Below, piece by piece: positions 3,883-60,302 of a DNA stretch of 64,000 bases. The translations under genes were made by a program, and so were the position numbers. The notes under the pieces are model-generated. The model was given only the letters and a program-made list of their open reading frames with translations. It was not told where the DNA came from and searched no databases. Source of the stretch: Actinomycetota bacterium (GTDB lineage Bacteria > Actinomycetota > UBA4738 > HRBIN12); NCBI GenBank assembly GCA_035697485.1, contig DASSCU010000011.1, positions 62,001 to 126,000 of the forward strand. Reading direction: 5' to 3'. Position 1 is the stretch's first letter. Every line of letters starts with the position of its first letter.

Positions 3883-3890
3883 AGGGTCGC

Positions 3891-4385: not shown

Positions 4386-4477
4386 GGCCGGAGCTTAGTC
4401 CCAAGTCCGCGAGCACAACTCGATGCGATCTTTCCCTCTCGCTGTAAGCGCATAGGCGATCGTCGGGATAGAACCGT

Positions 4478-30530: not shown

Positions 30531-30646
30531 CTGTGCGGTTCCTTCCATTCCGATGGCATGAGCGGTCGCCCAGCAACCCGCGAAGCATACGACGTAGGTG
30601 GTTCGGTTGGGAAGCCCTCCGCCGTTCGGCCGACACGCGCCGGTCG

Positions 30647-30652
30647 TAGGCT
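30647..30652 (+). promoter_or_regulatory. Candidate -10 box (TAGGCT) for xthA
   Basis: TAGGCT ends 7 bp before GTG 30660, consistent with a leaderless transcript. Confidence 0.4.
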
Positions 30653-30659
30653 CTGGTCC

Positions 30660-31445
30660 GTGCGCGTGATCACCTGGAACGTGAACTCGATCCGGCAACG
30701 CCTGCCTCGGTTGCTAGCCCTGTTGTCTCGACAAGCACCCGATGTGGTGTGTTTGCAGGAAACGAAGGTCACGGATGCCGACTTCCCGATCGAGCCGCTC
30801 CTCGAGCAGGGGTACGGCGCCCTCAGCCACGGGCAGGGCGGGCGCAACGGGGTCGCGATCGTCTCGCGCCTGCCGATGGAGGAGGTCGGCAGGGGTCTGC
30901 CCGGCTCGCCCGTGCCCGACGACGCTCGGGTGCTGGCGGCGAGGGTGGACGACGTGACCGTGGCGAGCATCTACGCGGTGAACGGCAAGGAGGTCGGCGA
31001 CCCGGCCTACGAGACAAAACTCGACTGGTACGACGCGTTGGTCGCCTGGCTGCGTGCGACGATCGATCCCGCCGTGCCGGCCCTGCTGGCCGGCGACTTC
31101 AACGTCACTCCCGACGATCGTGACGTCTACGACCCCGAGCTCTGGCGCGGGCGGAACCTCGCGAGCGAGCCGGAACGCGAGCGGCTGCGAGCGGTCATGG
31201 GTGCGGGGCTGGTCGACCTCGGCCGTCATGCCGCGGGCGACATCGAAGGCCCGTTCACCTTCTGGGACTACCGCATGGGCGCGTTCCACCGAGGGTGGGG
31301 GCTGCGCATCGACCTCGCACTCGGCACTGCCCCAGTGGCCGACCGGCTGGTCTCGGTCGAGGTCGATCGCGAGGAACGCAAGCCGACGGCGGGCGAGGGC
31401 AAACCGAGCGACCACGCTCCCGTGATCGTCACGTTGCGCGACTGA
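30660..31445 (+). CDS. xthA: Exodeoxyribonuclease III (AP endonuclease family)
   Basis: 261 residues of the EEP fold. It shows VITWNVNSIRQRLPRLL, the metal Glu in DVVCLQETKV, the Asn/Asp pair in AGDFNVTPDDRDVY, IDLALGTAP, and the catalytic His in KPSDHAPVIV. The enzyme cuts at abasic sites and removes 3' blocking groups in base excision repair. The GTG start at 30660 gives the standard N-terminus (MRVITWN). Confidence 0.95.
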   Translation: MRVITWNVNSIRQRLPRLLALLSRQAPDVVCLQETKVTDADFPIEPLLEQGYGALSHGQGGRNGVAIVSRLPMEEVGRGLPGSPVPDDARVLAARVDDVTVASIYAVNGKEVGDPAYETKLDWYDALVAWLRATIDPAVPALLAGDFNVTPDDRDVYDPELWRGRNLASEPERERLRAVMGAGLVDLGRHAAGDIEGPFTFWDYRMGAFHRGWGLRIDLALGTAPVADRLVSVEVDREERKPTAGEGKPSDHAPVIVTLRD

Positions 31446-31475
31446 GGGCTCGACCGCGCTTCGAACGGGCCTCGG

Positions 31476-31481
31476 TATCCT
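31476..31481 (+). promoter_or_regulatory. Candidate -10 box (TATCCT) for the sulfurtransferase gene
   Basis: TATCCT ends 7 bp before GTG 31489. There is no Shine-Dalgarno site, so a leaderless message is likely. Confidence 0.4.
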
Positions 31482-31488
31482 CCGTTGC

Positions 31489-32364
31489 GTGGAACTGCCG
31501 GAGATGCTCGTCGAGCCGAAATGGTTGCGCGCGCGACTATCTGCCGATGGGCTCGATGGCACGGTGATCGCCGACGTGCGCTGGGTTCCGGGGGGGCACG
31601 CTCGCGAGCGATACGCGCTCGGGCATATCCCCGGGGCGGTCTGCGTGGACGTCGACACCGATCTCGCTGCCGCTCCGTTCGAAGGCCCGGGACGGCACCC
31701 GCTCCCGTCGCCGGATGCGTTCGCGTCCTCGATGTCGCGCCTCGGGATCGGTGACGACAGCGCCGTGATCGCCTACGACGACGTCGGGGGCTGGGTTGCG
31801 GCGAGGCTGTGGTGGATGCTGCGCGTGCTGGGTCGCCGTGCGGCGCTGCTCGACCTCCCGTCGCTCGATACCTGGATCGACGGGGGAGGGTCGCTCGAGA
31901 CCGGCTCGTGGGGGGTCCCCACGCAGGCGTCGTTCACGCCGTCGCCATGGCCCGCCGACCGCGTCGTCGACGCCGACGCGGTGGGTCGAACGCTGAGGGA
32001 AGGCTCGGCCGTCGTGCTCGACGTCCGCTCGGGAGAGCGCTATCGGGGCGAGGACGAACCGATCGACCCGGTGCCTGGGCACATCCCCGGGTCGGTGAGC
32101 GCCGAGTGGGCCGGCAACCGCGACGAACAGGGTCGGTTCCTCGATCCGGGGGCGCTGCGCCGCCGATACGAGGGCCTCGGGGTTCGCGACGACGGCAGCG
32201 CGATCGCGTCGTGCGGCTCCGGCGTGACGGCGGCGTTCGGGCTGTTCGCGATGGAGCGCGCCGGACTCGGCCTCGGGCGGTTGTACGAAGGCTCGTGGTC
32301 GGACTGGGTGTCGGATGCCGCACGCCCCGTCGCGACCGGACCGGAGCCCGGCGAACCCCGCTGA
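31489..32364 (+). CDS. Sulfurtransferase with two rhodanese domains
   Basis: 291 residues, the thiosulfate/3-mercaptopyruvate sulfurtransferase layout. The N-terminal inactive rhodanese domain has ADVRWVPGG, YALGHIPGAVCVDVDTDL and AYDDVGGWVAARLWWML. The C-terminal active domain has VLDVRSGERYRGEDEPID, GHIPGSVSAEW and the catalytic loop SCGSGVTA with Cys 242. The loop CGSGVT is closer to mercaptopyruvate-type enzymes than to the CRKGVT of classic thiosulfate types. Substrate not certain. Confidence 0.92.
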   Translation: MELPEMLVEPKWLRARLSADGLDGTVIADVRWVPGGHARERYALGHIPGAVCVDVDTDLAAAPFEGPGRHPLPSPDAFASSMSRLGIGDDSAVIAYDDVGGWVAARLWWMLRVLGRRAALLDLPSLDTWIDGGGSLETGSWGVPTQASFTPSPWPADRVVDADAVGRTLREGSAVVLDVRSGERYRGEDEPIDPVPGHIPGSVSAEWAGNRDEQGRFLDPGALRRRYEGLGVRDDGSAIASCGSGVTAAFGLFAMERAGLGLGRLYEGSWSDWVSDAARPVATGPEPGEPR

Positions 32365-32376
32365 GTGAGCGGGTGC

Positions 32377-32832
32377 TCAGACCGTGAAGCGTTTGTTCGG
32401 CTGCTCGACCAGCGGCCGCGTGAGCGGGGAGAATCGCACATCCTGCTCCCAGTCGCGGCGACGTCGGTAGGCGGAGGGACTCACGCCCGTGTGCTGATGG
32501 AACGTCGTCGTGAAGTGGGACAGGCTGTTGAAGCCCACCCGGTGACAGATCTGGGTGACGGTGAGCTCGGTCTCGCGAAGGAGCTGCTGCGCGCGGTCGA
32601 TGCGGAGCCCGATCAGGTACCGGTACGGCGGGACCCCCACGAACGCCGTGAACTGGCGCGTGAAGTAATAGGGACTCAGCGCCGCTTCGTGCGCGATCGC
32701 CCGCAGGTCGACGTCCCGGTCGAGGTTGGCGGCGAGGAAGACCTGAACCTCGCGGATCCTGCGCTGCAGGTGCGGGCTGGGCAGTTCGTGATCGGTCACG
32801 CTCAACTCCGGGAACCCCCTTGCTCCCTGCAT
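32377..32832 (-). CDS. AraC-family transcriptional regulator, short
   Basis: 151 residues, mostly one AraC double helix-turn-helix domain at about 24-125: IREVQVFLAANLDRDVDL, AIAHEAALSPYYFTRQFTAF, GVPPYRYLIGLRIDRAQQLL and QICHRVGFNSLSHFTTTFHQ, then GVSPSAYRRRRDWEQ. There is no N-terminal sensor domain. It converges on the sulfurtransferase gene, with 12 bp between stops. Targets unknown. Confidence 0.9.
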   Translation of the reverse strand: MQGARGFPELSVTDHELPSPHLQRRIREVQVFLAANLDRDVDLRAIAHEAALSPYYFTRQFTAFVGVPPYRYLIGLRIDRAQQLLRETELTVTQICHRVGFNSLSHFTTTFHQHTGVSPSAYRRRRDWEQDVRFSPLTRPLVEQPNKRFTV

Positions 32833-32880
32833 GATGGTACGCCGGTGCGGCGCGTTCCGGCTTCAGGAATCCTGCCGTTC

Positions 32881-34272
32881 CTAAACCATGCCCTCGGGCT
32901 TGACCTGCCGGTCGTACTCCTCCTCGGAGAGGTGCCCGAGGGCGATCGCCGCTTCCTTCAGGGTGAGGCCCTCGTGGTGGGCCTTCTTCGCGATCGCCGC
33001 GGCATTGTCGTAGCCGATGCTGGGCGCGAGCGCGGTCACGAGCATCAGCGACCGGTCGACGAGCTCCTGGATGCGCTCACGGTCCGCCTCGAGGCCCTCG
33101 ATGCAGAACTCCCGGAACGTCCGGCTCACGTCGGCGAGCAACGCCGTCGAATGCAGGAAGTTGCGGATCATCACGGGCTTGAAGACATTGAGCTCGAAGT
33201 TGCCCATCGATCCCGCGACCTTGATCGCGGTGTCGTTGCCGATCACCTGACACGCGACCATGGTGACCGCCTCGGATTGCGTGGGGTTCACCTTGCCGGG
33301 CATGATCGAGGACCCCGGCTCGTTCTCGGGGAGCACGAGCTCGCCCAGCCCGCTGCGGGGGCCGGATCCGAGCCAGCGGATGTCGTTGGCGATCTTCATG
33401 AGGCTGGCGGCGAGCGTGGCCTCGGCCCCGCTCGCGAACACGATCGCGTCGTGGGCCGCGAGCGCGGCGAACTTGTTCGGCGCGGTCACGAACGGCAAGC
33501 CGGTGAGCTCGGCGATCTTCGCCGCGACCGCCTCGGCGAACCCCGGAGGCGAGTTCAGTCCGGTGCCGACCGCGGTCCCTCCAGCGGCGAGCTCGTAGAG
33601 CCCGGGCAGCGCGAACTGGAGTCGTTCGAGGTCGGCGTCGAGCTGAGCGGCGTACCCGCCGAACTCCTGCCCGAGCGTGAGGGGCACGGCGTCCTGCAGG
33701 TGGGTGCGGCCGATCTTCACGATGTCGGCGAACTCTTCAGCACGCGCGGCGATCGCGTCGCGGAGCGCGCGCACCGAAGGGAGCAGCCTCTCCACGATCG
33801 CCTGGGCCGCCGCGATGTGCATCGCGGTCGGGAACGTGTCGTTCGAGCTCTGGGACATGTTCACGTGGTCGTTCGGATGCACCGGCGACTTCGAGCCGAG
33901 GTCGCCGCCGGCGATCTCGATCGCGCGGTTCGAGATGACCTCGTTGACGTTCATGTTCGTCTGGGTGCCCGAGCCCGTCTGCCACACGTAGAGCGGGAAG
34001 TGCTCGTCGTGGCGCCCCTCGATCACCTCGTCGGCCGCTTGCACGATCAGGGCGGCGATCGCGGGGTCGAGGGCCCCGGACGCCTCGTTCACCAGCGCAG
34101 CCGCCTTCTTCAAGATCGCCTGGGCGCGGATCACCTCGAGTGGCATGCGATCGGCCTCGGCGTGCCCGATCGAGAAATGATGCAGCGATCGTTGGGTCTG
34201 CGCGCCCCAGTAGCGGTCGGTGCCGACGTCGATCTCGCCGAGGGAGTCGGACTCGGTGCGGTGCTCGGTCAT
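32881..34272 (-). CDS. fumC: Fumarate hydratase, class II
   Basis: Interconverts fumarate and malate in the TCA cycle. 463 residues from the ATG at 34272, a standard length; an in-frame ATG at 34296 is an alternative. Visible: [56 protein letters not shown], the [10 protein letters not shown] region, and the signature [16 protein letters not shown] (catalytic Ser loop). The cofactor-free class II type is clear. Confidence 0.96.
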
Positions 34273-34459
34273 CGTCGTTCGGCCTTCCGGGAGCATGCCG
34301 CCATCCTCCCAAAGCACGGCTTCCCTCGCCCGCCTAGGTCGTACGGCCCATGGGACGCGTCGACCGATGCAGGTTGTCCAGAGCCCGACTCACCCGTAGG
34401 GTAGGTCCGACAAGGAACCCCAGACATCCCCCCGGACCAGGCAAGGAGTGATCCCCCCG

Positions 34460-35830
34460 ATGCGGTCTTCGTTCGCCCGTCTTCTCACCGTGCTCTGTCT
34501 CGCCCTCGGCGGCCTTGCCGTCATGCCGTCACCGGCCACGGCGCTCAGTCAGAACCCCGATCCCTCGACGTGGATGGCCAACGGCAAGATCTTCGCCAGC
34601 GTGCGGTACGGCGACGTGATGTTCATCGGGGGAACGTTCAAGAAGCTCCGCGAATCGCTCTCGCCCGGGCCGGCCTCCGGCCCGCAGGTCACCGGCCTGA
34701 CCGGGCTCGCCGCGATCGACCTCACCACCGGGGAAGGCATCCCGAGCTTCAAGCCGCAGATCACCGTGAGTGGCAACCAGACCCTCGAGGTGCAGTCGCT
34801 CGCGATCGTGGGTGACACCTTGTACGTCGGTGGGCAGTTCAGCGAGGTCGACGGTCGGCCCCGGCTGAACATCGCAGCGATCGACATCGACCCCAACACG
34901 ATGACGGGCACGGTCGACCCGACGTTCGACCCCGTCGTGGGGGCGCCCGACGGCAACCTCGCCAACTTCGAGGTCCTCAAGATCCTGCCCGGCTCGAACG
35001 CCCTGTACATCAGCGGAGCCTTCAGCAAGGTCGACGGTAAGGGCCGGAACAAGATGGCCAAGCTGAGCTACGCGGGCGTCGTCGACAACACCTTCAAGCC
35101 GGGGTCCACGAACGGGGCGGTCCGGGACCTCGAATGGGCAGCCGACGGGCAGACGCTCTTCGCCAGCGGCAACTTCTACACCCTGAGCGGCGCCGCACGC
35201 CTGGCGGTTGGCCGGATCGACCCGACGACCGGCGCGGCGACGAACTGGGCGGTTCCCTCGGGGCAGATCCCGGCGAGTGGCAGTCCTGCGAAGCAGATCT
35301 GCTGGGACATCATCGCGACCTCGACGCGGTTGTTCGCCGGGTGCGGTAAGGGTCCGAACTTCATCGCCGCGTTCCGGGTCGACACGGGAGACACCGGCAG
35401 CCGCACCTGGATCCTCAGCACGGGTGGCAACGTCGTGAGCCTGCACCTGCTCGCCGGCGGAGACGCGATCGCGTTCGGCGGTCACTTCGGCATCAACAGC
35501 ACCGGGAGCTACAACGGCCTGATGCCCGTGTGCGGCAACGTTGGCCCCACCCGGTACCTCCGTGCGCTCGGCATCCTGCGCAACATCAACCAGACGACAG
35601 CGTCATCGGCGATCAGGAACGGGGACACCAGCACGGCGACTGCCTACCTCGACTGCAGTTTCACCCCGAACTTCGAGGGCCAGGACCCCGACGGCCCGAA
35701 CTTCACAGGCACGAACCCGTTCGGCGGTGTCTGGGAGATCCAGGTCACGGGACAGCACATCTGGGCGCTGGGTGAGTTCAAGTACGTCAACGCCAACGTC
35801 CGTCGCGCGATCGCCCGCTTCCCGCTGTAG
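34460..35830 (+). CDS. Secreted beta-propeller protein (delta-60-type repeats)
   Basis: 456 residues. ATG 34460 lies 11 bp after AAGGAG. Signal: SSFARLLTVLCLALGGLAVM, cleaved near ATA|LSQ. The body has repeats of the type LYVGGQFSEVDGRPRLNIAA, LYISGAFSKVDGKGRNKMAK, LFASGNFYTLSGAARLAVGR and IWALGEFKYVNANVRRAIAR, which match the delta-60 (DUF5122) seven-bladed propeller pattern. No catalytic residues are seen. It is the last intact gene before the broken tRNA(CAT). Confidence 0.8.
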   Translation: MRSSFARLLTVLCLALGGLAVMPSPATALSQNPDPSTWMANGKIFASVRYGDVMFIGGTFKKLRESLSPGPASGPQVTGLTGLAAIDLTTGEGIPSFKPQITVSGNQTLEVQSLAIVGDTLYVGGQFSEVDGRPRLNIAAIDIDPNTMTGTVDPTFDPVVGAPDGNLANFEVLKILPGSNALYISGAFSKVDGKGRNKMAKLSYAGVVDNTFKPGSTNGAVRDLEWAADGQTLFASGNFYTLSGAARLAVGRIDPTTGAATNWAVPSGQIPASGSPAKQICWDIIATSTRLFAGCGKGPNFIAAFRVDTGDTGSRTWILSTGGNVVSLHLLAGGDAIAFGGHFGINSTGSYNGLMPVCGNVGPTRYLRALGILRNINQTTASSAIRNGDTSTATAYLDCSFTPNFEGQDPDGPNFTGTNPFGGVWEIQVTGQHIWALGEFKYVNANVRRAIARFPL

Positions 35831-35878: not shown

Positions 35879-35921
35879 GGGGCCGTAGCTCAGTCGGTCA
35901 GAGCAGGGGACTCATAATCCC
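35879..35921 (+). repeat. Truncated tRNA(CAT), 5' half only
   Basis: 43 nt matching the 5' half of the intact tRNA at 51434 with only two differences (acceptor position 6 and one D-loop base). It contains the acceptor 5' strand GGGGCCG, the D arm GCTCAGTCGGTCAGAGC and the anticodon arm with CTCATAA. After the anticodon stem the sequence diverges; there is no T arm or acceptor 3' strand. I read this as one side of an integration or rearrangement in a tRNA gene. Confidence 0.85.
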
Positions 35922-35930
35922 CTGGGAGCA

Positions 35931-36537
35931 ACGTACGGCGAAGACCGGTCACATCCTCTGAACTGCGAGAACGTCCGGAGCGTCGGCGGTCGCATTCCTG
36001 ACGTGGGGCGGAAGTTCGTACATGGATTCGTACAACGCTTCCTCGGAGGGCATCCCGAGAGATCGGCCTCAATGACCCGGGGTCCCACCCCGGGGGTAGT
36101 CGAAAAAGCGCGGGGTCGCTTCGGGTGCCGGCAGCTGCCGGTGAGGGCGTATCACCGAGGCCACCCGCAGAGGCCTATCGATTCACTCCTACGGACCCTC
36201 GGGAATGGCACACGTCAGCAGGGATAGGACTAGGGTAGGAGGGACGACGCGGCTCCTAATCGGTCGGACCGCCGTAGGCGCAACCTTCGAAGGCCCGCAA
36301 CCTAAGGACACCCGTCGGAGCGTAGAGGCCGCCGAGCCGTCTGCCTCCCGGAGCGGCGAACCGCGATGGGACCCAGACCACCCGGGGGTCGCTGCGCGTC
36401 TCGCTCACTCCCGTCGATGACCGCGCCGTGATCGGTGGCGAGCTCCGTGACCACAGCCCCGGGAGGTAGAGGAGCGGCCTCGCCGCAGCTCGCCGAAGAG
36501 GCTCTGCCCGCACCATAACCGGCGGGACTGCAGACAA
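35931..36537. other. Region without an intact gene
   Basis: About 600 bp after the broken tRNA. It contains an 8-bp GC hairpin (CCCGGGGT / ACCCCGGG near 36078-36096, no T run) and module D copy 2 at 36301-36406. Open frames look non-coding. Confidence 0.5.
36301..36406 (-). repeat. Module D, copy 2
   Basis: The reverse complement carries GAGACGCGCAGCGACCCCCG and CCTCTACGCTCCGACGGGTG, matching 20561-20637 with one or two changes in each block. The encoded ETRSDPRVVW and GGLYAPTGVLRL resemble the first copy. It may be the 3' part of a broken gene on the minus strand (36256-36537). Confidence 0.6.
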
Positions 36538-36792: not shown

Positions 36793-37064
36793 GCATTGCA
36801 ACCCTGGACTTCGGTGCCGCCCGTTGTCCACCCATCGCCACCTGCGGGAAGGCGAGACATGCAGGTGGTGGTCGCCATACTCGCAGTACAGCGGCTACCT
36901 CAAGTCTGGGTTCCACCGGCCGGTGATACCGTCAGGTCTACGGCACCGACTGCCTCGTCGATCACGCTGGCGCCTTTCGGAAGTCGAGAGCCAGAGAGGG
37001 CGAACGAGGGCTCCACCGAGGCAGTCTCCGAGCCCGCCGAGCGCTACCGAGTGTAGGAGCGAGC

Positions 37065-37709
37065 ATGAAGGAGACAACCAACTACCTGGTTCCCGTCGTT
37101 GTCGAGCAGACGAGCCGTGGCGAGCGCTCCTTCGATATCTACTCTCGCTTGCTGAGCGAGCGCATCGTTTTCTTGGGCACGCCCCTCGACGACGCGGTCG
37201 GCAACCTGATCATGGCCCAGCTCCTGCACCTCGAGAGCGAGAACCCGGACAAGGACATCAACCTCTACATCAACTCGCCGGGCGGCAGCATGACGACGCT
37301 GTTTGCGATCTACGACACCATGCAGTACATCAAGCCCGACGTGTCGACCATCGTGATGGGGCAGGCGGCCTCGGCTGCGGCCGTCTTGGCGCTGGCCGGT
37401 GCGAAGGGCAAGCGCTACACGCTTCCCCACGCGCGGATCCTCCTGCACCAGCCCTACGGCGGCGCGGAGGGCCAGGCCGTCGACATCGAGATCCAGGCGA
37501 AGGAGATCGTTCGCAACCGGGAGCTGATGAACGAGATCATCGCCACGCACACCGGCCAGCCGCTCGAGCGCGTGTCCAAGGACTCCGACCGCGACTTCAT
37601 CCTCACCGCCGAGCAGGCCGTGGACTACGGAGTGGTGGACGAGATCATCACCAGCCGTGGAATCACACCCGAACTTGCGGCAGTGGCCGCGGCCGACTTC
37701 AAGGACTAG
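37065..37709 (+). CDS. clpP: ATP-dependent Clp protease proteolytic subunit (island copy)
   Basis: 214 residues, the full ClpP fold. Catalytic Ser 103 in [13 protein letters not shown], His 128 in [15 protein letters not shown], and the Asp in [18 protein letters not shown]. Also [17 protein letters not shown] and [16 protein letters not shown]. The N-terminus [20 protein letters not shown] is well conserved. TAGGAG precedes the ATG by 7 bp. No clpX or trigger factor gene is adjacent, unlike the usual chromosomal clpP locus, so this is probably an extra copy. Confidence 0.95.
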
Positions 37710-41334: not shown

Positions 41335-41558
41335 TCACTTGTCAGGCATCCATAGCCGAGGCTTCGCGTCGAGCCACCGCTCCACATCCTTGCGTCGCCA
41401 CAACCGGTGCCGTCCGATTACCTTCGCCGGGGGCAGTCCTCACGCTCGGCAACGATCTGGCTCACGCGCTGCTTGGTCACACCGAGGTTCGGTGCGATGT
41501 CGATGACGCGCATGTAGCCCTGCTCGACCAGGGCGCGGATCTCGGCTGACTCAGGCAT
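41335..41558 (-). pseudogene. Cassette family C: AlpA/MerR-like DNA-binding protein, frameshifted
   Basis: From the ATG at 41558: PESAEIRALVEQGYMRVIDI, APNLGVTKQRVSQIVAERED, a helix-turn-helix, then a stop because of a frameshift in a run of Cs. The next frame continues PAKVIGRHRLWRRKDVERWL and DAKPRLWMPD. The whole resembles excisionase-like winged-helix proteins of mobile elements. Nucleotide identity to the copy at 51517-51726 is high. Confidence 0.7.
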
Positions 41559-41707
41559 GCACGGGGAGGTCTATCTCCGTCGTGAGCGAGTCGTGAACGG
41601 AACTGTCCCCTTGACGGGCATCACCTCGGCAGGTCACAGTGCCGAGGACTTGCCCGCCCGATCCGCCGGATGCCTTGTATCGGACCGTCCGTGAGAGGGG
41701 GAGCATC

Positions 41708-42640
41708 GTGCGACGACTACTCGGGCTGGGGCTCACCCTCGCGCTCATCTCGGTGGCGGGCATCGCTGCCGCCGCGACGCCCGAGGTCGTATTGAACGAT
41801 CCGGCGGTCAACGAGCGGTTCCCCTCCGCTTCCGACGGTTACCTCGTCTGGAGCGCGAACAGCGAAGCGAGGCCCAACCGAACCCACAGCTACGTGATGG
41901 CCGATGGAGGCGACCCGGTCCGGGTCAACCCGGCTGGCACGCAGAGCTTCGAGGCAGCGATCGACGGCACGACGGTCGCGTACCAGCAAGTGACCTCCGA
42001 CGGTGCAGATATCTGGTTCTACGACGTGCTGACCGAGGAGCGGACGCCGGCTCCGAGCGGTGTGAACACCCCGAATTGGGAGTCTCGACCGACGCTCTCA
42101 GGCAACTGGCTGTTGTTCACGCGGTTGATCTTCTCGTCGAAGGCCTCGGTCAGGGTCGTGCTGTTCAACCTGATGACCGACGTGCGGATCGTGCTCCGGG
42201 AGGTACCCAGCCGTCGCCACTACCTCGTGAGCGACCAGGTGAACGGCGACTGGGCCACGTTCGAGTCCTGCCGGTACATGCGGGGCAGGTTTTCCAACTG
42301 CCAGGTGTTCCGCTACCAGATCTCGACCGAGGAGCTCGTGAAGGTCCCGAACCCGGGCGTGCAACAGTACGGGGGAGCGGTCTCGGCCGACGGCACGGTC
42401 TATCTCGTGCGCACGCGGAACCGCGATCACTGGGTGTGTGGGAGCCACACGAAGCTGGTCCGCATGGATGGCGGCAACGGAACGGTGATCGCAACCCTTC
42501 CAGACGGCAGGGACTCACTGACGCCTTTCGCCCTCGACGAGACCGGCGGTTCGACGACGCTGTACCTCGACCGGTACAGGTGCAGAAGCAGCGCGAGCGG
42601 TATCTACCGCATCCCCGACGCCGACTCAGCGACTCTCTGA
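41708..42640 (+). CDS. Secreted beta-propeller-like protein
   Basis: 310 residues from GTG 41708, with GAGGGGGA upstream. Signal: RRLLGLGLTLALISVAGIAAAA. The mature part starts PEVVLNDPAVNERFPSASDG and has blades such as YLVWSANSEARPNRTHSYVM, GTTVAYQQVTSDGADIWFYD and NWESRPTLSGNWLLFTRLIF; Cys pairs occur in FESCRYMRGRFSNCQVF and near the end. It is a propeller of the TolB/YncE type but lacks the typical WSPDG motif. Confidence 0.65.
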   Translation: MRRLLGLGLTLALISVAGIAAAATPEVVLNDPAVNERFPSASDGYLVWSANSEARPNRTHSYVMADGGDPVRVNPAGTQSFEAAIDGTTVAYQQVTSDGADIWFYDVLTEERTPAPSGVNTPNWESRPTLSGNWLLFTRLIFSSKASVRVVLFNLMTDVRIVLREVPSRRHYLVSDQVNGDWATFESCRYMRGRFSNCQVFRYQISTEELVKVPNPGVQQYGGAVSADGTVYLVRTRNRDHWVCGSHTKLVRMDGGNGTVIATLPDGRDSLTPFALDETGGSTTLYLDRYRCRSSASGIYRIPDADSATL

Positions 42641-45709: not shown

Positions 45710-46182
45710 GCGCAAGCCGCCCTTCATCGGGGTTGCTCGGGCACGATAGCCCGAGCTTCTTTTCGAAGCGAGAAGCATGCAGCCCGAGGCTGGTCCGGCA
45801 TGGTCGTCTCGCCCCGAGATCTTGAGATCGGCGACGGAATGGCCCCACCGGCGACTGACGGGTTGCCTCCGAGTATGCGGACGGAACCACGACGCAGGCG
45901 GTACCTTTGCCCAATTTCGGACCGCATAGGGCGTGGATGATCCATGCATGCTTAAGTGCCGCCGGTCCCAGGGTTGGAGGCGCAACTCCTTCCCGGAGCC
46001 CGGCGGCTGACTGAATGCTGGATGGGACCCACTGCCGGCAGCGGGTTGCCTCCGAGTCGTCTCGACCAGTCCCTAAGTCCGCCAACACGCGGTTCAACAC
46101 CTAGTCTATGAGCTGGCGGTGTTAGGGCGAAAAGATCCGCTCGCCCTAAGCGCGACGACCTCTCCGAGGCGTCTAATCAGGC
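45710..46182. other. Intergenic region upstream of the second ECF sigma gene
   Basis: 473 bp between divergent genes. A 15-bp word GGGTTGCCTCCGAGT occurs twice, at 45860-45874 and 46043-46057. A TAGTCT box lies near 46101 and TCTAAT at 46172. It probably holds regulatory sites for one or both flanking genes. Confidence 0.45.
46172..46177 (+). promoter_or_regulatory. Candidate -10 box (TCTAAT) for the ECF sigma gene
   Basis: TCTAAT ends 5 bp before GTG 46183, compatible with a leaderless message. It does not fit TANNNT perfectly. Confidence 0.3.
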
Positions 46183-46656
46183 GTGAGCACGGACGAGGAC
46201 GCGCGCTTCGAAGCGTTCTTCAAGGAACAGTTCCCGAGGGTGGCGAGAACCACCGCCTTCGTTACGGGCGACCTCCAAGAAGGGATGGACATCGCCCAGG
46301 AGGCCATGGCCCGTGTCTACCAACATTGGCGCAAGGTCTCGGCGATGGATCGTCCGGATGCGTGGGTGCACAGGGTCGCGACGAACCTCGCTCTGTCACG
46401 GCTCCGCCGCCGCCGTCCGGAGAAGCTCGTCACCGAGCCGCCGTCGCTGCAACCCGCCCCCTTGGATGACGAGCTGCTGGATGCGGTCCGTTCGCTCTCA
46501 CCGGCCCAGCGCTCTGTCATCGCCCTTCGCTTCTATCTCGACTGGTCGGTCGAGGACGTAGCCGAGGCGCTAGGCAAGAAGCCCGGCACGGTGCGCGCCC
46601 TGACCCATCAAGGCATGGAGCGGCTTCGGTCGCTCCTGCTGGAGGAGACCCCATGA
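46183..46656 (+). CDS. ECF RNA polymerase sigma factor, SigE-like (island copy)
   Basis: 157 residues, GTG start. Region 2: FEAFFKEQFPRVARTTAFVT, then EGMDIAQEAMARVYQHWRKV and DAWVHRVATNLALSRLRRRR. Region 4: RSLSPAQRSVIALRFYLDWS, VEDVAEALGKKPGTVRALTH. Same SAF/SigE-like type as the gene at 4478. Its stop overlaps the membrane propeller gene (ATGA). Confidence 0.9.
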   Translation: MSTDEDARFEAFFKEQFPRVARTTAFVTGDLQEGMDIAQEAMARVYQHWRKVSAMDRPDAWVHRVATNLALSRLRRRRPEKLVTEPPSLQPAPLDDELLDAVRSLSPAQRSVIALRFYLDWSVEDVAEALGKKPGTVRALTHQGMERLRSLLLEETP

Positions 46657-50999: not shown

Positions 51000-51355
51000 G
51001 CTCGACCATCGCCGCGCTCGCGGGGCTGCGTGATCGGCAGTCCGCCGAGCCTGTCGCCGACGTGGGCGGGCTGGTGTTTGAGCATCCGACTTCGGAGGGG
51101 TTCCTGCCGTGGCGTCCGGACTCGACGACTCACGCCCTTCCAGCGACTCTCGAAGGCGGCGAAGGTCCCGGTGGCTCCGTTCCACTACCTGCGCCACGAC
51201 TGCGCGTCGTGGCTCCTGGAGGCGGGGCTCGACGTGGTGTCGGTCTGCGAACGACTCGACACTCGTCGCCGGACGTGACGTTGCGAATCTACTCCCACGC
51301 GCTTCCGGGTCGGCAGCGTGAGTTGGCTCGCGCCATCGGTGCTGCACTTTCGTAG
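51000..51355 (+). pseudogene. Tyrosine recombinase (integrase) C-terminal remnant
   Basis: Pieces in different frames: VGGLVFEHPTSEGFLPWRPD; then FQRLSKAAKVPVAPFHYLRH and DCASWLLEAGLDVVSVCERL (HxLRH box present); then SSPDVTLRIYSHALPGRQRE with the catalytic Tyr. At least two frameshifts (near 51137 and 51262). The N-terminal half is missing. It lies 79 bp before an intact tRNA, the typical place for a phage-type integrase next to its att site. Confidence 0.75.
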
Positions 51356-51433: not shown

Positions 51434-51507
51434 GGGGCGGTAGCTCAGTCGGTTAGAGCAGGGGACTCATAATCCCTCGGTCGCAGGTTCGAGTCCTGCC
51501 CGCCCCA
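51434..51507 (+). tRNA. tRNA with anticodon CAT (tRNA-Met, elongator type, or tRNA-Ile2)
   Basis: A complete 74-nt cloverleaf: acceptor GGGGCGG / CCGCCCC, D arm GCTCAGTCGGTTAGAGC, anticodon arm GGGGACTCATAATCCCT (one G-T pair), T arm GCAGGTTCGAGTCCTGC, discriminator A followed by CC. It is not initiator-like. Whether it reads AUG or, after lysidine modification, AUA cannot be decided by eye. Partial copies lie at 35879 and 56326. Confidence 0.93.
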
Positions 51508-51516
51508 CCTGCAATC

Positions 51517-51726
51517 CATACCCGAGGCTTCGCATCGAGCCACCGCTCCACATCCTTGCGTCGCCACAACCGATGCCGGCCGGCTGCCTTCGCCGGCTTT
51601 GGATGTCGTCGCGCTCGGCGACGATCTGGCTCACGTGCTGCTTGGTCACTCCGAGGATCGCGGCGATGTCGATGACGCGCAGGTAGCCCTGCTCGCCCAG
51701 GGCAGAACCTCGGATGACTCCGGCAC
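51517..51726 (-). pseudogene. Cassette family C, third copy, frameshifted
   Basis: From a GTG at 51726: PESSEVL, one-base shift, then EQGYLRVIDIAAILGVTKQH, VSQIVAERDDI, a second shift, then PAKAAGRHRLWRRKDVERWL, DAKPR. Near-identical to the copy at 41335-41558 over about 200 bp. Its 3' end runs straight into the tRNA at 51507. Confidence 0.7.
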
Positions 51727-51737
51727 GCTTGTTCGTT

Positions 51738-52304
51738 CTACGGCGCGGCGAGCTCCACGAGGTCCCCGCGCCGATCGATTTCGAGGAACGTCACACCTTC
51801 AGGAAGGGACGTGCCGGTGATCCGTGCGGGGTTCGATCTGCGTCGATCGGCCGCCCAGTCAAGAACCCCCGTCGTGCAGAGCTGCGCCTGATCGTCCTCG
51901 GTCAAGCTCGCATAGTTCAACTCGAACGTTCCCTCGGCGGAACCGAATCGCACGGTCCCGGCGAGGTGGAAGGAGTAGGAGGGCGGCTGTCCCGGTTGCG
52001 GGCGCAAGTCGTACTGGAACTCGCCGCCTTCGCCAAGGCGGAGCCGCTCTGCCCAGAAGCCGATGCCGATGCCAGGCAACCAACCGGTCGATCCGTCCTC
52101 ACAAGTCACGGTGAAGGAGATGAGGAACTCGCCGAGGAAGCGTCGCCCGCTGTCACGTTTCAAGACGTCCAGACGAACCCTCTCAGCCTCGGAGGTTTCA
52201 CCGCGGTAAGTGATGATCTGGCCCGCCGACGCTGAACCGACGAGCGTGACGACAAGCGTCGCGGTCAAAGTGAGCACGAGAGCGCATCGGGCGGGGGTCT
52301 TCAT
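51738..52304 (-). CDS. Small secreted protein
   Basis: 188 residues from ATG 52304, with GGAGG upstream. Signal: RCALVLTLTATLVVTLVGSA (cleaved near ASA|GQI). The mature part (ITYRGETSEAERVRLDVLKR, RFLGEFLISFTVTCEDGSTG) is beta-rich, with two Cys (VTCEDG and AQLCTTG) and RFGSAEGTFELNYAS. No family recognised. Confidence 0.65.
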   Translation of the reverse strand: MKTPARCALVLTLTATLVVTLVGSASAGQIITYRGETSEAERVRLDVLKRDSGRRFLGEFLISFTVTCEDGSTGWLPGIGIGFWAERLRLGEGGEFQYDLRPQPGQPPSYSFHLAGTVRFGSAEGTFELNYASLTEDDQAQLCTTGVLDWAADRRRSNPARITGTSLPEGVTFLEIDRRGDLVELAAP

Positions 52305-54761: not shown

Positions 54762-55276
54762 GCGCGTTCCCAGAGCCGTTCGACAAGCTGGCGAGATCGC
54801 CCCGCGGGAGCACCGCAACCCGTCGAACGTCAGAACTTCGACCATCACGATCGCGGCCCGGTGGTATCTGAGCGTGTCGTGCCCGCTGCAGGTGATCGTG
54901 TCGAGCCGGAACATGGACGAGGCCCCGGAGCAGGGGGAAGCCTAGGTCTGGGCCCTGCCCGGGGGCCTCGATGCGCCCCCAGCTCTCGTGTTGGGGGTCC
55001 CAATCCTGCGCTCTGCAGCCCGGATGCGCAAGAGTGAATCTCCCCGAGTCAAGACCGTGGGTCGTCGGATACCTGCCGATACGGCCGACGGTCTGTGATG
55101 TCGCTTGGCGACCCAGATGTTCAGGTCGAGTCGTCGACGCCAGCTCGGCACCATACCGGGTGATCGCGACCCAGGTTGGTCCCCAACGTCGAGCGGAACA
55201 ACCGGTAGCGCTCGGAACGGCCGAGGTGCGACACTCCGGTTCAGCCATCGCCGTCAGGCGACCGGGGAGGACGGAC
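54762..55276. other. Region without a supported gene
   Basis: 515 bp. A short plus-strand tail ending at about 54945 (TIAARWYLSVSCPLQVIV, then RNMDEAPEQGEA) may be gene debris. Nothing else seen. Confidence 0.4.
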
Positions 55277-56263
55277 ATGGACCAGCTGCGGACGATACGA
55301 AGGCCCCGCGGACTCGCCGTCCTCGCGGGGGTCGGGTTGGTCCTCGCGATGCTTCCCGCGCTCACTCCGGGGGCAGAGTCGGCCACGAACCGGTGCTGGG
55401 CGAAGAACGTGACCCGGGGTACCCCCGCCCGCTCGCGCCTGCAGGCCGTGATCGACGACGCCAGGCCGGGGGACCGGATCAAGGTCAGGCAGGTTTGCGT
55501 CGGCCACTTCAGGATCGGGAAACAGCTCACCCTCGTCGGCGAACGCACCCCCTCGGTAACGATCCCCGTCCTCCGCACGAACGGCGCGGGCAGGGTTCTC
55601 TTCATCGAGGCGCGGGTGACGCTCACCAACCTGAGGATCACCGGCGGAGCGGTGGAGCGGGGCGGTGGGATCTGGAACGCCGAGGGCTTCCTGATCCTGA
55701 ACCGCTCGTCGGTACGCGAAAACGAGGCGTCGCTCTACGGCGGTGGCATCGTGAACGACGGCGGCACCGTCGTGCTGAACGGCTCGTCCACCGTCACCGG
55801 GAACACGACCGGGGGGTTCGGCGGTGGCATCGTGAACGACGGCGGCGCCGTCGTGTTGAACGACTCGTCGGCGGTCCGCCTCAACTCGGCGGTCGATCTC
55901 GGCGGGGGCATCATCAACTCCAAAGGCACCGTCGTGATGCACGATGCTTCCTCGGTGAGCCGCAACACCGCAGCACTCGGGGGCGGCTTCTTCATCGACG
56001 ACGGGAGTTGGGTCACGATGACCGACTCGGCCTCGGTGCGAGGGAACACGGCCGACGAGGGGGGCGGGATCTACAACGACGACGGCACCGTCACGCTCAA
56101 GAACGCCTCCTCGGTGACCGGCAACACGGCGACGGACGGCGGCGGGATCCTGTTCGGTCTCGTCAGGGCATGCAACGGCGCCGGCGAGGACGAGTGGACC
56201 GGTGCGATCAGTCCGAACGATCCGGACGATCCGCCCACGGTGACCCTGTTCGCGTGCCCGTAG
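55277..56263 (+). CDS. Secreted right-handed beta-helix protein
   Basis: 328 residues from ATG 55277, with GGGGAGGAC upstream. Signal: GLAVLAGVGLVLAMLPALTP. From about 35: a parallel beta-helix start (RSRLQAVIDDARPGDRIKVR), then at least six imperfect repeats of about 27-30 residues of the type GGGIVNDGGTVVLNGSSTV, TGNTTGGFGGGIVNDGGAVV and GGGIYNDDGTVTLKNASSV. The repeats resemble the polymorphic outer membrane protein/pectate-lyase-like fold (GGGIxN, SxVxxNxA). No catalytic residues are obvious; likely surface or adhesive role. Confidence 0.75.
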   Translation: MDQLRTIRRPRGLAVLAGVGLVLAMLPALTPGAESATNRCWAKNVTRGTPARSRLQAVIDDARPGDRIKVRQVCVGHFRIGKQLTLVGERTPSVTIPVLRTNGAGRVLFIEARVTLTNLRITGGAVERGGGIWNAEGFLILNRSSVRENEASLYGGGIVNDGGTVVLNGSSTVTGNTTGGFGGGIVNDGGAVVLNDSSAVRLNSAVDLGGGIINSKGTVVMHDASSVSRNTAALGGGFFIDDGSWVTMTDSASVRGNTADEGGGIYNDDGTVTLKNASSVTGNTATDGGGILFGLVRACNGAGEDEWTGAISPNDPDDPPTVTLFACP

Positions 56264-56325
56264 GATGAACCTGCAGGTCACCGACCGGAACCTGCCGGGA
56301 CAGATCGGCTGAGCCGAGCCGCGTG

Positions 56326-56356
56326 CTCGGTCGCAGGTTCGATTCCTGCCCGCCCC
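56326..56356 (+). repeat. 3' fragment of tRNA(CAT) (candidate attachment site)
   Basis: 31 nt identical to the 3' end of the intact tRNA (51476-51506) except for one T-loop base (56343). It contains the T arm GCAGGTTCGATTCCTGC and the acceptor strand CCGCCCC. It ends 2 bp before the metal ATPase start. Confidence 0.85.
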
Positions 56357-56358
56357 GC

Positions 56359-58698
56359 ATGGCACGGATGGCGACACACGCCCCGCTCGACCTGAGCCGA
56401 TGGTGGCTCGCCTTGTCGATCGTCGGGCTCGCTGCGGGCGGCGTGCTCGCGCTCGCCTTCGACGAGGAACGGGCCGCCGGGCTCGTGTGGGCGGCGACCA
56501 CGGTGATCGGCGTCATCCCGATCGCGCGCGACGTGGTCGGGGGACTCATCCGCCGCGAACCAGGGGTGGATCTGATCGCGTTGATCGCGATGGTCACCGC
56601 GCTGGCGCTGCAGGAGTACCTGGCCGGCGCCGTGATCGCACTCATGCTGGCGACCGGGCACGCGCTCGAGTCCTACGCGGACCGTCGGGCCCACGCGGAG
56701 CTCTCGGCGCTGCTTTCCAGGGCTCCGAGGGTCGTCACCCGCTACGAGCACGACGGTCTCGTCACCCTGCCGATCGAGGAGGTCCGTCCGGGCGACCGGC
56801 TCCTCGTGAAGACCGGTGAGGTCGTGCCGGTCGACGGCGTGTTGATGGGGGACGCCGTACTCGACGAGTCGGCGCTGACGGGAGAGTCGCGACCGGTCGA
56901 CCGGCCCCACAACGACCTCGTCCGCTCGGGCGCCGTCAATGCGGGGCGCGGGTTCGACCTGCGGGCGACGGCATCCGCGGAGGACAGCACCTACGCGGGC
57001 ATCGTGCGGCTCGTGCAGGCCGCACAGGACGAGAAGGCGCCCGCCGTCCGCCTTGCGGACCGATACGCGGCGATCTTCATCCCCATCACGCTGGTGATCG
57101 CGCTCGGGGCATGGGCGGTCTCGGGCGACCCCCTGCGCTTCCTCACGGTCGTGATGGTCGCGACGCCGTGCCCGCTGATCCTCGCCGTGCCGATCGCGAT
57201 CGTGGCCGGCATCTCGCGCTCGGCGAAGCGAGGCATCATCGTGAAGGGCGGCGGAGCTCTCGAGACCCTCGCCCGAGGCTCCGTGCTGATGTTCGACAAG
57301 ACCGGCACCTTGACGTCGGGGGTCCCAACGGTCGCCGACGTGGAGCCGTTCGGGGCCACCGGGAGCGGAGAGCTGCTCCGCCTGGCGGCCTCGCTCGATC
57401 AGGTGTCGCCGCACGTGCTCGCGGGTGCGGTGGTCCGGTCTGCTCGTGAGCACGAGGTCGAGCTGGAGTTCCCCGACGCGGTGGTCGAGAAGCACGGGGC
57501 GGGCATCGAAGGTGATGTGGGGGAGCGCCGGGTCTCGCTCGGGAAGGCCTCGTTCGTCTCCGGCGGCGCCCCACTCCCGCGCGGAGCTCGCGATGCCCGG
57601 CGTCGATCGATGCTCGACGGATCGTCGTGCGTGTTCATCGCCGTCGACGGCGTGGTCGCGGGCGCGCTACTGATCGATGACCCGATCCGACCCGATACCC
57701 CGCGCGTGATCCGGTCCCTGCGGCGCACCGGCATCCGGCGGGTCGTGATGGTGACGGGCGACCACCCGGATGTCGCCGAGTCGGTCGGAGCCGCGCTCGG
57801 CGTGGACCGGATCCTCTCCGAGCGGAGCCCCGGCGAGAAGGTCGAGGCGGTCGATGCGGAGCGTGGTGAAGGTGGGGTCGTCATCATGGTGGGAGACGGC
57901 CTGAACGACGCGCCCGCGCTCGCCGCCGCCGACGTCGGGGTGGCGATGGGCGCTCGCGGCGCCACCGCCTCGTCGGAGGCGGCCGACGTCGTGCTCGTGG
58001 TCGACCGCCTCGACCGCCTGGTCGAGGCGATGACGATCGCGAAGCGTTCCCGCACGATCGCCGTGCAGAGCGTGCTGATGGGCATGGGGGTCGCGTTCGG
58101 GTTCATGTTCCTCGGGGCGTTCGGGCTGTTCGGACCGGTCGCGGCCGCGATCGTGCAGGAGGCCATCGACGTGGCCTCGATCCTCAACGCCCTGCGTGCC
58201 CTCGGCGGAGGTGCCGGACACGCTCGACGTCCGCCAGGCACCGACGTGGGGGAGCGGTTCCGCGAGGAGCACCGGCTCTTCGCGCCCGAGCTACACCGCA
58301 TCCGCTCGGTGGCCGATCGCCTCGAGACGCTGGCACCCGAGGAGGCACGAACGGAGCTCGAGGCGATCCGTGCGTTCCTGGTCAACCGGCTCCCACGGCA
58401 CGAGGAGGAGGAGGAGGCCGCCGTCTACCCGGTCGTCGCGCGGCTGATGGGCGGGGAGGACCCGATGGCGAGCATGGCGCGGGCGCACGTCGAGATCTCG
58501 CACCTCACCCGGGTGTTCCGCTCGCTCATCGACGACCTGCCCGCGGGCGTGCCGGGCCCCGACGACCTGATGGACCTGCGACGGGTGCTGTACGGCCTGC
58601 AGGCGATCCTGCGCCTGCACTTCGCCCAGGAGGAGGAGGCGTACGCGTGGCTCGCGGCCGAGGCCGACGCCGACGCGCGGGAGCCCTCGCCCGTCTAG
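56359..58698 (+). CDS. P1B-5-type heavy-metal ATPase with C-terminal hemerythrin domain
   Basis: 779 residues from ATG 56359 (56368 possible). P-type ATPase core: TGEVVPVDGVLMGDAVLDES and TGESRPVD (actuator), the membrane motif TPCP (269-272) in VATPCPLILAVPIAI, DKTGTLTSG with Asp 313, MVGDGLNDAPALAAADVGVA. TPC in the membrane motif marks subgroup P1B-5, linked to nickel and iron. From about 630: FREEHRLFAPELH, LVNRLPRHEEEEEAAVYPVV and LRLHFAQEEEAYAW, the His/Glu pattern of a hemerythrin HHE domain, known for this subgroup. There is no N-terminal metal-binding domain. It begins right at the tRNA fragment. Confidence 0.9.
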   Translation: MARMATHAPLDLSRWWLALSIVGLAAGGVLALAFDEERAAGLVWAATTVIGVIPIARDVVGGLIRREPGVDLIALIAMVTALALQEYLAGAVIALMLATGHALESYADRRAHAELSALLSRAPRVVTRYEHDGLVTLPIEEVRPGDRLLVKTGEVVPVDGVLMGDAVLDESALTGESRPVDRPHNDLVRSGAVNAGRGFDLRATASAEDSTYAGIVRLVQAAQDEKAPAVRLADRYAAIFIPITLVIALGAWAVSGDPLRFLTVVMVATPCPLILAVPIAIVAGISRSAKRGIIVKGGGALETLARGSVLMFDKTGTLTSGVPTVADVEPFGATGSGELLRLAASLDQVSPHVLAGAVVRSAREHEVELEFPDAVVEKHGAGIEGDVGERRVSLGKASFVSGGAPLPRGARDARRRSMLDGSSCVFIAVDGVVAGALLIDDPIRPDTPRVIRSLRRTGIRRVVMVTGDHPDVAESVGAALGVDRILSERSPGEKVEAVDAERGEGGVVIMVGDGLNDAPALAAADVGVAMGARGATASSEAADVVLVVDRLDRLVEAMTIAKRSRTIAVQSVLMGMGVAFGFMFLGAFGLFGPVAAAIVQEAIDVASILNALRALGGGAGHARRPPGTDVGERFREEHRLFAPELHRIRSVADRLETLAPEEARTELEAIRAFLVNRLPRHEEEEEAAVYPVVARLMGGEDPMASMARAHVEISHLTRVFRSLIDDLPAGVPGPDDLMDLRRVLYGLQAILRLHFAQEEEAYAWLAAEADADAREPSPV

Positions 58699-59477
58699 AG
58701 GTCGAGGTCGAGCGGCGTGACGGCGTCGCCGACCCGGACCGAACCGGGTTCCACGACACGGGCATAGACGCCGAACGGAAGGCCGCCGTCGCCGGGGATG
58801 CGCTGTCGGTACCTCGCGATCTGGGTGAGGGTGTCCCAGTCCTTCTCGCCGGTGTCAGGGTCCTTGGTGGTGAATACGCATCGCGGCACCTGGCCGCGGA
58901 CCTCGATCGTGGCCCCGCCCACCCGTACACGATGGCCCGCCCACGAGTCCTCCTCGTACGGGTCGCAGCCCTCGAGTTCGAGGTTGAGCCGGAACCGCCG
59001 TGCGTCGAGCGTCCCCTCGTACCTGCCTCGCTCGGCGAGGTCGCGCACGGACTCGGCCGAGACGACCGTGATCGGCTCCACGTCGGCACCGTCCCCCTCG
59101 CGGTCGCATCGCACCAGCCGGAGGGGGCGGGCGCAGTACACCGAGATCGCCTCGGCGAACGGTCCCTCGACGACGTGCGCGGCCACGGGCCGTCCGTAGA
59201 AGTCCGTGGTCTCCTCGGCGCCGAGCTCGTCGGCGGGCGCCTCGGTCAGGCTGCCGTCGGGGAAGCGGAGCTTCAGGCGTTCGGCCTCGGTGTCGTATTC
59301 GGCCACGATCGCGACCAGGGGGCCGAACGTGCTGCCGCTGAACAGCTCGCCCCACTCATCCACGATGTAGAACCGGCGATCCTGGGGGATCCCCGTTGGC
59401 GTGATGGTCGCCGACGAGGGGTGATGGATCGCGGTCCCCTTCACCGGGGTCACGCTGAGGCGGGCGAGCGTCGGCAT
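58695..59477 (-). CDS. MOSC domain protein
   Basis: 260 residues from the ATG at 59477. N-terminal beta-barrel part: LARLSVTPVKGTAIHHPSSA and GIPQDRRFYIVDEWGELFS. C-terminal MOSC domain: FRLNLELEGCDPYEEDSWAG, VRVGGATIEVRGQVPRCVFT and TKDPDTGEKDWDTL. The conserved Cys in VPRCVFT is the expected sulfur-carrying residue of molybdenum cofactor sulfurase-like and mARC-like proteins. Its stop overlaps that of the ATPase gene on the other strand (shared CTAG). Confidence 0.88.
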   Translation of the reverse strand: MPTLARLSVTPVKGTAIHHPSSATITPTGIPQDRRFYIVDEWGELFSGSTFGPLVAIVAEYDTEAERLKLRFPDGSLTEAPADELGAEETTDFYGRPVAAHVVEGPFAEAISVYCARPLRLVRCDREGDGADVEPITVVSAESVRDLAERGRYEGTLDARRFRLNLELEGCDPYEEDSWAGHRVRVGGATIEVRGQVPRCVFTTKDPDTGEKDWDTLTQIARYRQRIPGDGGLPFGVYARVVEPGSVRVGDAVTPLDLDL

Positions 59478-59568: not shown

Positions 59569-59775
59569 GTGACCACGATCGAACGGCCGGCGCCGCACCG
59601 GGCGGTGCTCGAGCTCCAAGCCCGAGCACGCGACCGGGCGCTCGCCGAGCGCGTCGAACGCCTCGAGCGAGATGTCGCTCGCCTCGGTTCTCGCGTCGAC
59701 GGCGCGATGGTCACACTGGTACCCGAGGCCCTGGCCGGCGCGGCGCCGGAGGCACCCACGCAGCCTGCTCGATGA
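59569..59775 (+). CDS. Small coiled-coil protein
   Basis: 68 residues, GTG start with GGGAGGGG upstream. The middle (LQARARDRALAERVERLERD, VARLGSRVDGA) is a heptad-type coiled coil. The stop overlaps the next start (ATGA at 59772), which supports translation. Function unknown. Confidence 0.6.
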   Translation: MTTIERPAPHRAVLELQARARDRALAERVERLERDVARLGSRVDGAMVTLVPEALAGAAPEAPTQPAR

Positions 59776-60302
59776 TCATGAGCGATCGGCCCGGCGTCCC
59801 CGACGACGTCGTGATCGGACCCCTCGTATCCGGGCTGGCGCCGCTCGCTTGTCTGCTCGGCTCGTGGCGAGGCGGCGGGCGAGGCGCATTTCCGACGATC
59901 GACGCGTTCGACTACGGCGAGTGGATCCGATTCGAACACGTCGGCGACGGGTTCCTGCTGTCGTCGCAGCGCAGCTGGCTCGCCGCCGACGGTTCCCCGC
60001 TCCACTTCGAGCGCGGCTTCTGGCGGCCGGGGGGCTCGGCCGAACGCGTGGAGGTCACGCTCGCGCATCCGCTCGGGCTCACCGAGGTGGCCGAGGGAAC
60101 GGTTGCGACGGCGGGTCCTGTGACGACGATCGAGGTGGCGACGGGGACGATCGGTCGCACGAGCACCGGCATGGACGTGGTCGGCCTCGTCCGGCGTTAC
60201 CGGGTCGAGGGTGACGCGCTGAGCTACGAGATCGACATGGCCACGGGCACGACCCCGATGGCACGGCACCTCGCCGCCGAGCTGCGTCGCGTGTCCGACT
60301 GA
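59772..60302 (+). CDS. Nitrobindin-like heme-binding beta-barrel protein
   Basis: 176 residues. It resembles the nitrobindin (THAP4 C-terminal-like) fold: LACLLGSWRGGGRGAFPTID, FDYGEWIRFEHVGDGFLLSS, RGFWRPGGSAERVEVTLAHP, GLTEVAEGTVATAGPVTTIE, and the C-terminal PMARHLAAELRRV, which carries the His expected to bind heme iron. Bacterial members bind heme and can handle peroxynitrite or NO. Translationally coupled to the coiled-coil protein. Confidence 0.85.
   Translation: MIMSDRPGVPDDVVIGPLVSGLAPLACLLGSWRGGGRGAFPTIDAFDYGEWIRFEHVGDGFLLSSQRSWLAADGSPLHFERGFWRPGGSAERVEVTLAHPLGLTEVAEGTVATAGPVTTIEVATGTIGRTSTGMDVVGLVRRYRVEGDALSYEIDMATGTTPMARHLAAELRRVSD

Follow-up and report, generated by a model that had tools for sequence, protein, structure and literature searches.

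Two questions are raised by this locus: how the gene of a metal pump came to begin two nucleotides behind a piece of a tRNA, and what the hemerythrin-like domain at the end of the pump may sense. The locus lies in a 64,000-nt stretch of contig DASSCU010000011.1 (Actinomycetota bacterium, GCA_035697485.1), which is called the window below; all coordinates are window positions. A first-pass annotation had described a P1B-5 metal ATPase with a hemerythrin domain and had suggested that integration next door may have replaced its promoter. The gene and its parts are as follows.

56359 to 58698, plus strand: P1B-5 ATPase with a C-terminal hemerythrin-like domain, 779 residues (open reading frame, Pfam, tree)
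57163 to 57174, plus strand: TPCP motif of the transport helix, residues 269-272
57295 to 57309, plus strand: DKTGT phosphorylation motif, residues 313-317
58252 to 58644, plus strand: hemerythrin-like domain, residues 632-762, with likely ligands H638, H681, E685, H710, H754 and E758

The open reading frame is translated without an internal stop. Pfam matches were obtained with E1-E2_ATPase (3.4e-42), Hydrolase (1e-25) and Hemerythrin (PF01814, 3e-11, residues 632-762), and the last of these bears out the fusion of a hemerythrin domain to a metal ATPase. With the NCBIfam models, the protein scored above the cut-off for the heavy-metal and cadmium-family P-type ATPases and below that for the copper P-type ATPase. 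TPCP does lie in the transport helix, as had been claimed, and T, P, C and P are each present in 29 of the 29 aligned rows covering this helix. The full-length model has a mean pLDDT of 78.7 and shows helices at residues 13-32, 37-64, 71-83, 87-120, 228-255, 258-290 (broken near TPCP), 552-587 and 593-615; the eight modelled helices are read as putative transmembrane helices. A dN/dS of 0.10 was obtained across 319 codons against a relative of the same genus (G015), which indicates that the protein has been kept, though the average also covers the time before the insertion described below.

The subgroup of the ATPase was examined with a tree of 50 rows covering the ATPase core. All TPCP rows fell on the same side of a branch supported at 100/100, and the opposite side holds E. 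coli CopA, E. coli ZntA and two SPC, four APC, two CPH and two CPD rows. The 29 rows with both TPCP and the tail, Nia of Sinorhizobium among them, group at 98/95. The names of the P1B subgroups were given to the rows by the motifs that we take to define them. A stretch of pMOL30 considered as a P1B-4 reference contained none, and the SPC rows were taken from other plasmids. The P1B-5 assignment held in this tree: the ATPase groups with Nia apart from the P1B-1, -2, -3 and -4 references, which are thin for P1B-4 (two SPC rows) and P1B-2 (one row), and the placement in P1B-4 or P1B-1 that had been named as contrary evidence did not occur. Judged by its sequence, the window ATPase is a member of the already known P1B-5 type. 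A Planctomycetales ATPase (L064, 3001-4677) carries TPCP but lacks the hemerythrin tail; its long branch lies beside the group.

The pSymA gene used here is presumably Nia by its place and rank, in a record that carries no annotation. Nia (SMa1163, Sinorhizobium meliloti) shares with the window protein the clade, the domain order, TPCP and the ligand positions H/H/E/H/E/H/E, at about 48% identity. Ni2+ and Fe2+ are cited as its substrates in PMC4932525, where deletion of nia in another S. meliloti strain is described as leaving the tolerance to Cu, Zn, Cd, Pb and Ni unchanged. The P1B-5 ATPase of Acidothermus cellulolyticus (A0LQU2) has the same architecture by its description in PMC9388753.

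The ligands of the tail were compared in an alignment of 32 rows, which includes three C-terminal pieces; the TPCP counts are therefore out of 29. Two sequences with broken frames (L065, L063), one whose contig ends before the tail (L058) and an N-terminal piece (L025) were left out; L010-L016 and L018 are duplicates of included rows and L021 repeats L061. In L065 (G005, 3001-5274) the ATPase gene runs across several frames, by decay or by sequencing error in the contig. H638, H681, E682, H710, E712, H754 and E758 are invariant in all 32 rows, and position 685 is Glu in 28 and Asp in 4. Loss of the His/Glu ligands, the other contrary finding named in advance, was thus not seen, as the ligands are kept in every row. 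The tail fits the pattern H-HxxxE-H-HxxxE with H638, H681, E685, H710, H754 and E758. The canonical HxxxH of helix 3 is absent: position 714 (H710+4) is occupied by Ser in the window protein, and just 2 of the 32 rows have His. In helix 4, H754+4 is Glu in all rows, H754+5 is Glu in 27, Asp in 4 and Leu in 1 (Nia), and H754+6 is acidic throughout. A review gives the P1B-5 motif as H-HxxxE-HxE-HxxxxD (PMC9388753). Its HxE is present in the tail as H710 and E712, whereas its HxxxxD differs from the window group, in which every one of the 32 rows has Glu at +4 and an acid is not always present at +5; Nia, with Leu where the other rows are acidic, does not show the published HxxxxD. Since Nia has no acid at +5 and YtfE uses +4, we would prefer H754+4 over HxxxxD as the putative helix-4 ligand. 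The ligand residues make the tail pattern a hemerythrin-like (HHE) one and not that of an O2-carrier hemerythrin. The earlier label was therefore right about the domain family, but the ligand pattern is the hemerythrin-like one without the canonical HxxxH.

By sequence profile, the solved structures closest to the tail are those of YtfE (E 5e-6). The YtfE ligands are given as H84, H129, E133, H160, H204 and E208 (PMC9052748) and agree with those of the tail in order and spacing, the first four by alignment and the last two by spacing only. ScdA_N, the N-terminal domain of RIC/YtfE, was not among the Pfam matches of the ATPase at E 0.001 or better. The tail itself was modelled as a four-helix bundle (pLDDT 87.7), on which YtfE overlays poorly (TM 0.39), and YtfE is absent among the VIA-align rows listed for the tail; the YtfE bundle is described as left-handed and helix-swapped (PMC9268430). 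A Foldseek search of the tail against the PDB gave no match at E 0.001 or better. The best VIA-align rows were 3cax and 2p0n with Z 14.0, a value near the usual one for helical bundles. These two are presumably HHE-domain proteins, although their titles do not name the domain. The structure of FBXL5 (3v5y) overlays the tail with Z 10.8 and 3.5 A over 136 residues, again a value common for helical bundles. The structural neighbours of the tail model thus appear generic. A search for the domain in phages gave no match. The pattern H-HxxxE-H-HxxxE is also reported for plant BTS/HRZ (PMC12022348), so that the tail shares it with these iron-sensing hemerythrin-like domains; the domains of FBXL5 and BTS/HRZ are fused to ubiquitin ligases, whereas that of the window is fused to a pump.

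The gene neighbourhood was also considered. Two genes follow the ATPase gene in the window.

58695 to 59477, minus strand: MOSC-domain gene, convergent with the ATPase gene (PF03473, 5.7e-21; PF03476, 1.7e-8)
59772 to 60302, plus strand: nitrobindin gene, THAP4-like heme-binding barrel (PF08768, 8.1e-43)

Of 17 genomes in the window's family, 15 gave a match at E 1e-10 or better with the profile of the hemerythrin-like domain; the two misses are G015, whose contig ends inside the ATPase gene, and G016, which gave no match. Among ten genomes of the order outside the family, one matched, more weakly. Neighbours were counted in the 11 other family genomes that have the ATPase start and at least about 1.5 kb upstream of it (G001, G002, G003, G005, G006, G007, G010-G014). 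Nitrobindin lies directly upstream of the ATPase gene in six of them, with its end placed from a few bases of overlap up to 35 nt before the ATPase start; PF08768 was confirmed in three (G011, G012, G013) and the other three were recognised by similarity (G001, G002, G003). Nitrobindin was not found next to the ATPase gene in the remaining five. A MOSC gene is upstream on the opposite strand in six of the 11 (G006, G007, G010, G012, G013, G014). The order in the window is ATPase, MOSC (minus) and nitrobindin, as against nitrobindin directly upstream in the relatives; it would thus appear that the ATPase gene left its place behind nitrobindin and came to lie beyond MOSC. Nitrobindins are described as sequestering NO and isomerising peroxynitrite (PMC10094804); a single review was listed for nitrobindin together with hemerythrin. 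Five plasmid regions were also inspected: one ATPase with TPCP and the tail is near ferritin-family and VIT-family genes and another is near NRAMP and a metal-dependent regulator, while two regions have no iron gene and one further record is without annotation. Taken together, the neighbours fit the handling of iron and NO. In a Dormiibacterota sequence (L047, 5298-7727) a second P-type ATPase gene overlaps the end of the ATPase gene with TPCP and the tail, and a similar open reading frame is present in L049.

A different role of the tail was weighed, that of an O2 or redox sensor of the DcrH kind: the pump would be switched when the diiron centre binds O2 and autooxidises. In PMC9388753, oxy and met states are described for the tails of the A. 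cellulolyticus and S. meliloti P1B-5 ATPases, and this review leaves the choice between iron and O2/redox sensing by the tail open. The ligand pattern is nevertheless unlike that of O2 sensors, since the window protein lacks a His at H710+4 and just 2 of the 32 rows have one, and the nitrobindin context in six of the 11 relatives also speaks against such a role. A DcrH-like role is possible, though we lean against it.

The start of the gene leads to the second question. The features that bear on it are as follows.

51434 to 51509, plus strand: intact tRNA-Met(cat), of which no second intact copy was found in the genome
56326 to 56356, plus strand: displaced 3' part of tRNA-Met, positions 43-73, ending 2 nt before ATG 56359
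35879 to 35921, plus strand: displaced, decayed 5' part of tRNA-Met, positions 1-43, lying 20.4 kb upstream of the 3' part
35922 to 56325, no strand: island of 20,404 bp splitting tRNA-Met, absent from the same-genus relative
51030 to 51355, plus strand: frameshifted C-terminal remnant of a tyrosine recombinase (PF00589), just upstream of the intact tRNA-Met
54971 to 56263, plus strand: gene upstream of the tRNA fragment, ending 95 nt before ATG 56359, a possible source of read-through

The tRNA fragment noticed before the start codon is indeed a 3' part of tRNA-Met; it matches the intact copy at 96.8% over 31 nt (one mismatch, E 2e-10). A pattern search with up to three mismatches placed the 3' end of tRNA-Met at two places only in the genome, in the copy at 51434-51509 and at 56326-56356, and ARAGORN called no tRNA at the fragment. 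Both displaced parts break at the same tRNA position, 43. In G015, the only other genome of the genus that was compared, a single contig carries a match to window 30645-34313, then 41 nt, an intact tRNA-Met and the ATPase gene, and its ATPase side is collinear with the window from 56326 on. Because both flanks join at an intact tRNA-Met there, 35922-56325 is an insertion that split the tRNA. G015 is a draft in which the ATPase gene is cut by the contig end, and it is the sole genome with an intact junction of tRNA and ATPase. Relative to G015, the window has an extra gene at 34400-35830, left of the tRNA 5' part. The GC content is 65.1% in the island, against 68.5% in the left flank and 73.0% in the right one.

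The recombinase remnant was recognised by PF00589 on the open reading frame 51030-51278 (residues 37-76) with E 1.3e-4 and 22.2 bits, below the cut-off of 27.1, and it continues by eye in another frame. Several internal repeats, direct and inverted, of 43-216 nt and 78-95% identity are found in the island, for example 41348-41560 with 51514-51728; they look like related elements piled up at tRNA-Met. Since it holds a frameshifted recombinase remnant and several internal repeats, the island of decayed integrative elements is old and probably composite. The outer tRNA parts repeat 43 and 31 nt of the inner intact tRNA, and the two outer edges share about one tRNA base. A single element with direct repeats at both edges is unsupported by such edges; there may be either a tandem pair of elements or a single one that brought a tRNA with it. 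Rfam scored the left tRNA part with the bases after it (35879-35953) as a tRNA at 33.7 bits (cut-off 29), where ARAGORN made no call. Because GGTCGCATTCCTG near 35990 resembles the 3' half of the tRNA with a 7-nt gap, the left edge may once have held a complete tRNA that has since decayed and taken up an insert. The island also holds a Clp protease gene (36927-37709; CLP_protease, E 2.5e-79) and a gene of an ECF-type sigma factor (46177-46656; Sigma70_r4_2 4.8e-13, Sigma70_r2 1.9e-11). A frameshifted stretch at 51514-51760 (minus), which adjoins the intact tRNA-Met, has by eye the look of an excisionase-type helix-turn-helix. The tRNA-Arg(ccg) called by ARAGORN at 41748-41838 is probably false, since an open reading frame with coding-like GC3 surrounds it and the Rfam listing lacks it.

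ATG 56359 stands 2 nt after the acceptor strand of the tRNA fragment, in agreement with the spacing first described. As the frame is open from 56269, GTG 56323 and ATG 56368 are possible in-frame starts as well. In the comparison of upstream regions that had been proposed, G015 carries the intact tRNA-Met directly before the ATPase GTG, which follows the C after the discriminator base, and the window ATG is at the equivalent place. This GTG and one six bases on are the sole ATG/GTG/TTG codons between the tRNA-internal stop and the conserved start of the protein. Because the identical spacing is found behind an intact tRNA-Met, it is ancestral, and its creation by the integration is rejected. 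The integration next door was thus real and larger than the first-pass annotation saw, but it did not create the spacing. Direct abutment of tRNA-Met and ATPase was found at none of 11 other tRNA-Met loci (L125, L127-L136). In six other genomes (G002, G005, G006, G010, G013, G014) this tRNA is found on the strand of the ATPase gene, 3.9-19 kb before it. The linkage thus predates the genus, whereas direct abutment was seen in the genus only.

Cleavage of tRNA 3' ends between the Cs of encoded CCA ends is described in P. acnes and S. coelicolor (PMC3848588, PMC4681348), and a 5'-terminal ATG or GTG is described as necessary and sufficient for leaderless translation in mycobacteria (PMC4633059). 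By analogy, a cut between the Cs at this junction would put the start codon at the 5' end of the mRNA. A bolder idea is that the genus uses "tRNA punctuation" as in mitochondria, with 3' cleavage of tRNA-Met between the Cs giving a pump mRNA that begins at GUG or AUG; iron export would then be tied to tRNA output and the island would be a natural knock-out of this control. We offer this only tentatively and hold it to be unlikely as a whole. The literature titles and abstract openings listed gave no case of a tRNA-derived leaderless message in bacteria.

In the window, read-through is the simplest present source of a transcript, because the upstream gene ends 95 nt away and a terminator scan between it and the ATPase gene gave no match. 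The product of 54971-56263 looks secreted, with Gly/Asn-rich repeats and by eye a parallel beta-helix, and has no Pfam family. Folding of the RNA at both junctions gave z -1.85 and 0.18, which is uninformative beyond the tRNA itself.

Two other accounts of the expression were weighed, and both were judged improbable. According to the first, the ATPase gene is a dying leftover that was cut from its promoter by the island and is unexpressed. The tRNA and the DNA upstream of it were displaced, a promoter scan of window 55900-56500 gave no match, and no clear ribosome-binding site was seen by eye before the gene; the reading frame is nonetheless full length with every catalytic and ligand residue, the low dN/dS points the other way even though it includes the time before the insertion, and the missing terminator match leaves the gene open to read-through. 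According to the second, the gene always had its own promoter within the 3' half of the tRNA, and the island changed nothing. In the half kept before the gene just one of 31 nt is mismatched, which would agree with this, but a tRNA half conserved just after displacement needs no promoter as the cause, no promoter-like match was found near the G015 junction either, and TANNNT was not seen by eye at -10 for transcription starting at the codon. That the island and the split tRNA arose from assembly or binning is very improbable: the assembly is a draft in 64 contigs and the GC content changes at the island, but both flanks are collinear with one G015 contig across the tRNA and both displaced tRNA parts end at position 43.

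The reading that we consider probable is an Fe(II)/Ni(II)-exporting P1B-5 ATPase with a tail sensing iron and/or NO/O2, once expressed from the tRNA and later split off by the island. Following Nia, Fe(II) and/or Ni(II) would be the metals that the ATPase exports through the cytoplasmic membrane. The cytoplasmic tail, as in other hemerythrin-like domains, may bind a diiron centre and tune the pump to iron and/or NO/O2. The ancestor of the genus probably had the ATPase gene right behind tRNA-Met with the start codon at the would-be CCA end. Because the gene sits immediately behind tRNA-Met in G015, the tRNA promoter probably drove its expression, and 3' processing of the tRNA would have freed a leaderless message. 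In the window lineage, the comparison with G015 indicates that the 20.4-kb island of decayed elements split the tRNA and left its 3' end before the ATPase gene, which would now depend on read-through from the gene upstream or on some other promoter.

Three points are fresh: the linkage with nitrobindin, the hemerythrin-like ligand pattern as against the published motif, and a start that abuts a tRNA with a possible leaderless message processed from it. The ligand pattern and the abutment of an NO-binding nitrobindin in six of 11 relatives make the question of what the P1B-5 tail senses a testable one. A start codon exactly at the 3' processing site of a tRNA offers a clean way to test whether bacteria make leaderless messages through tRNA maturation.
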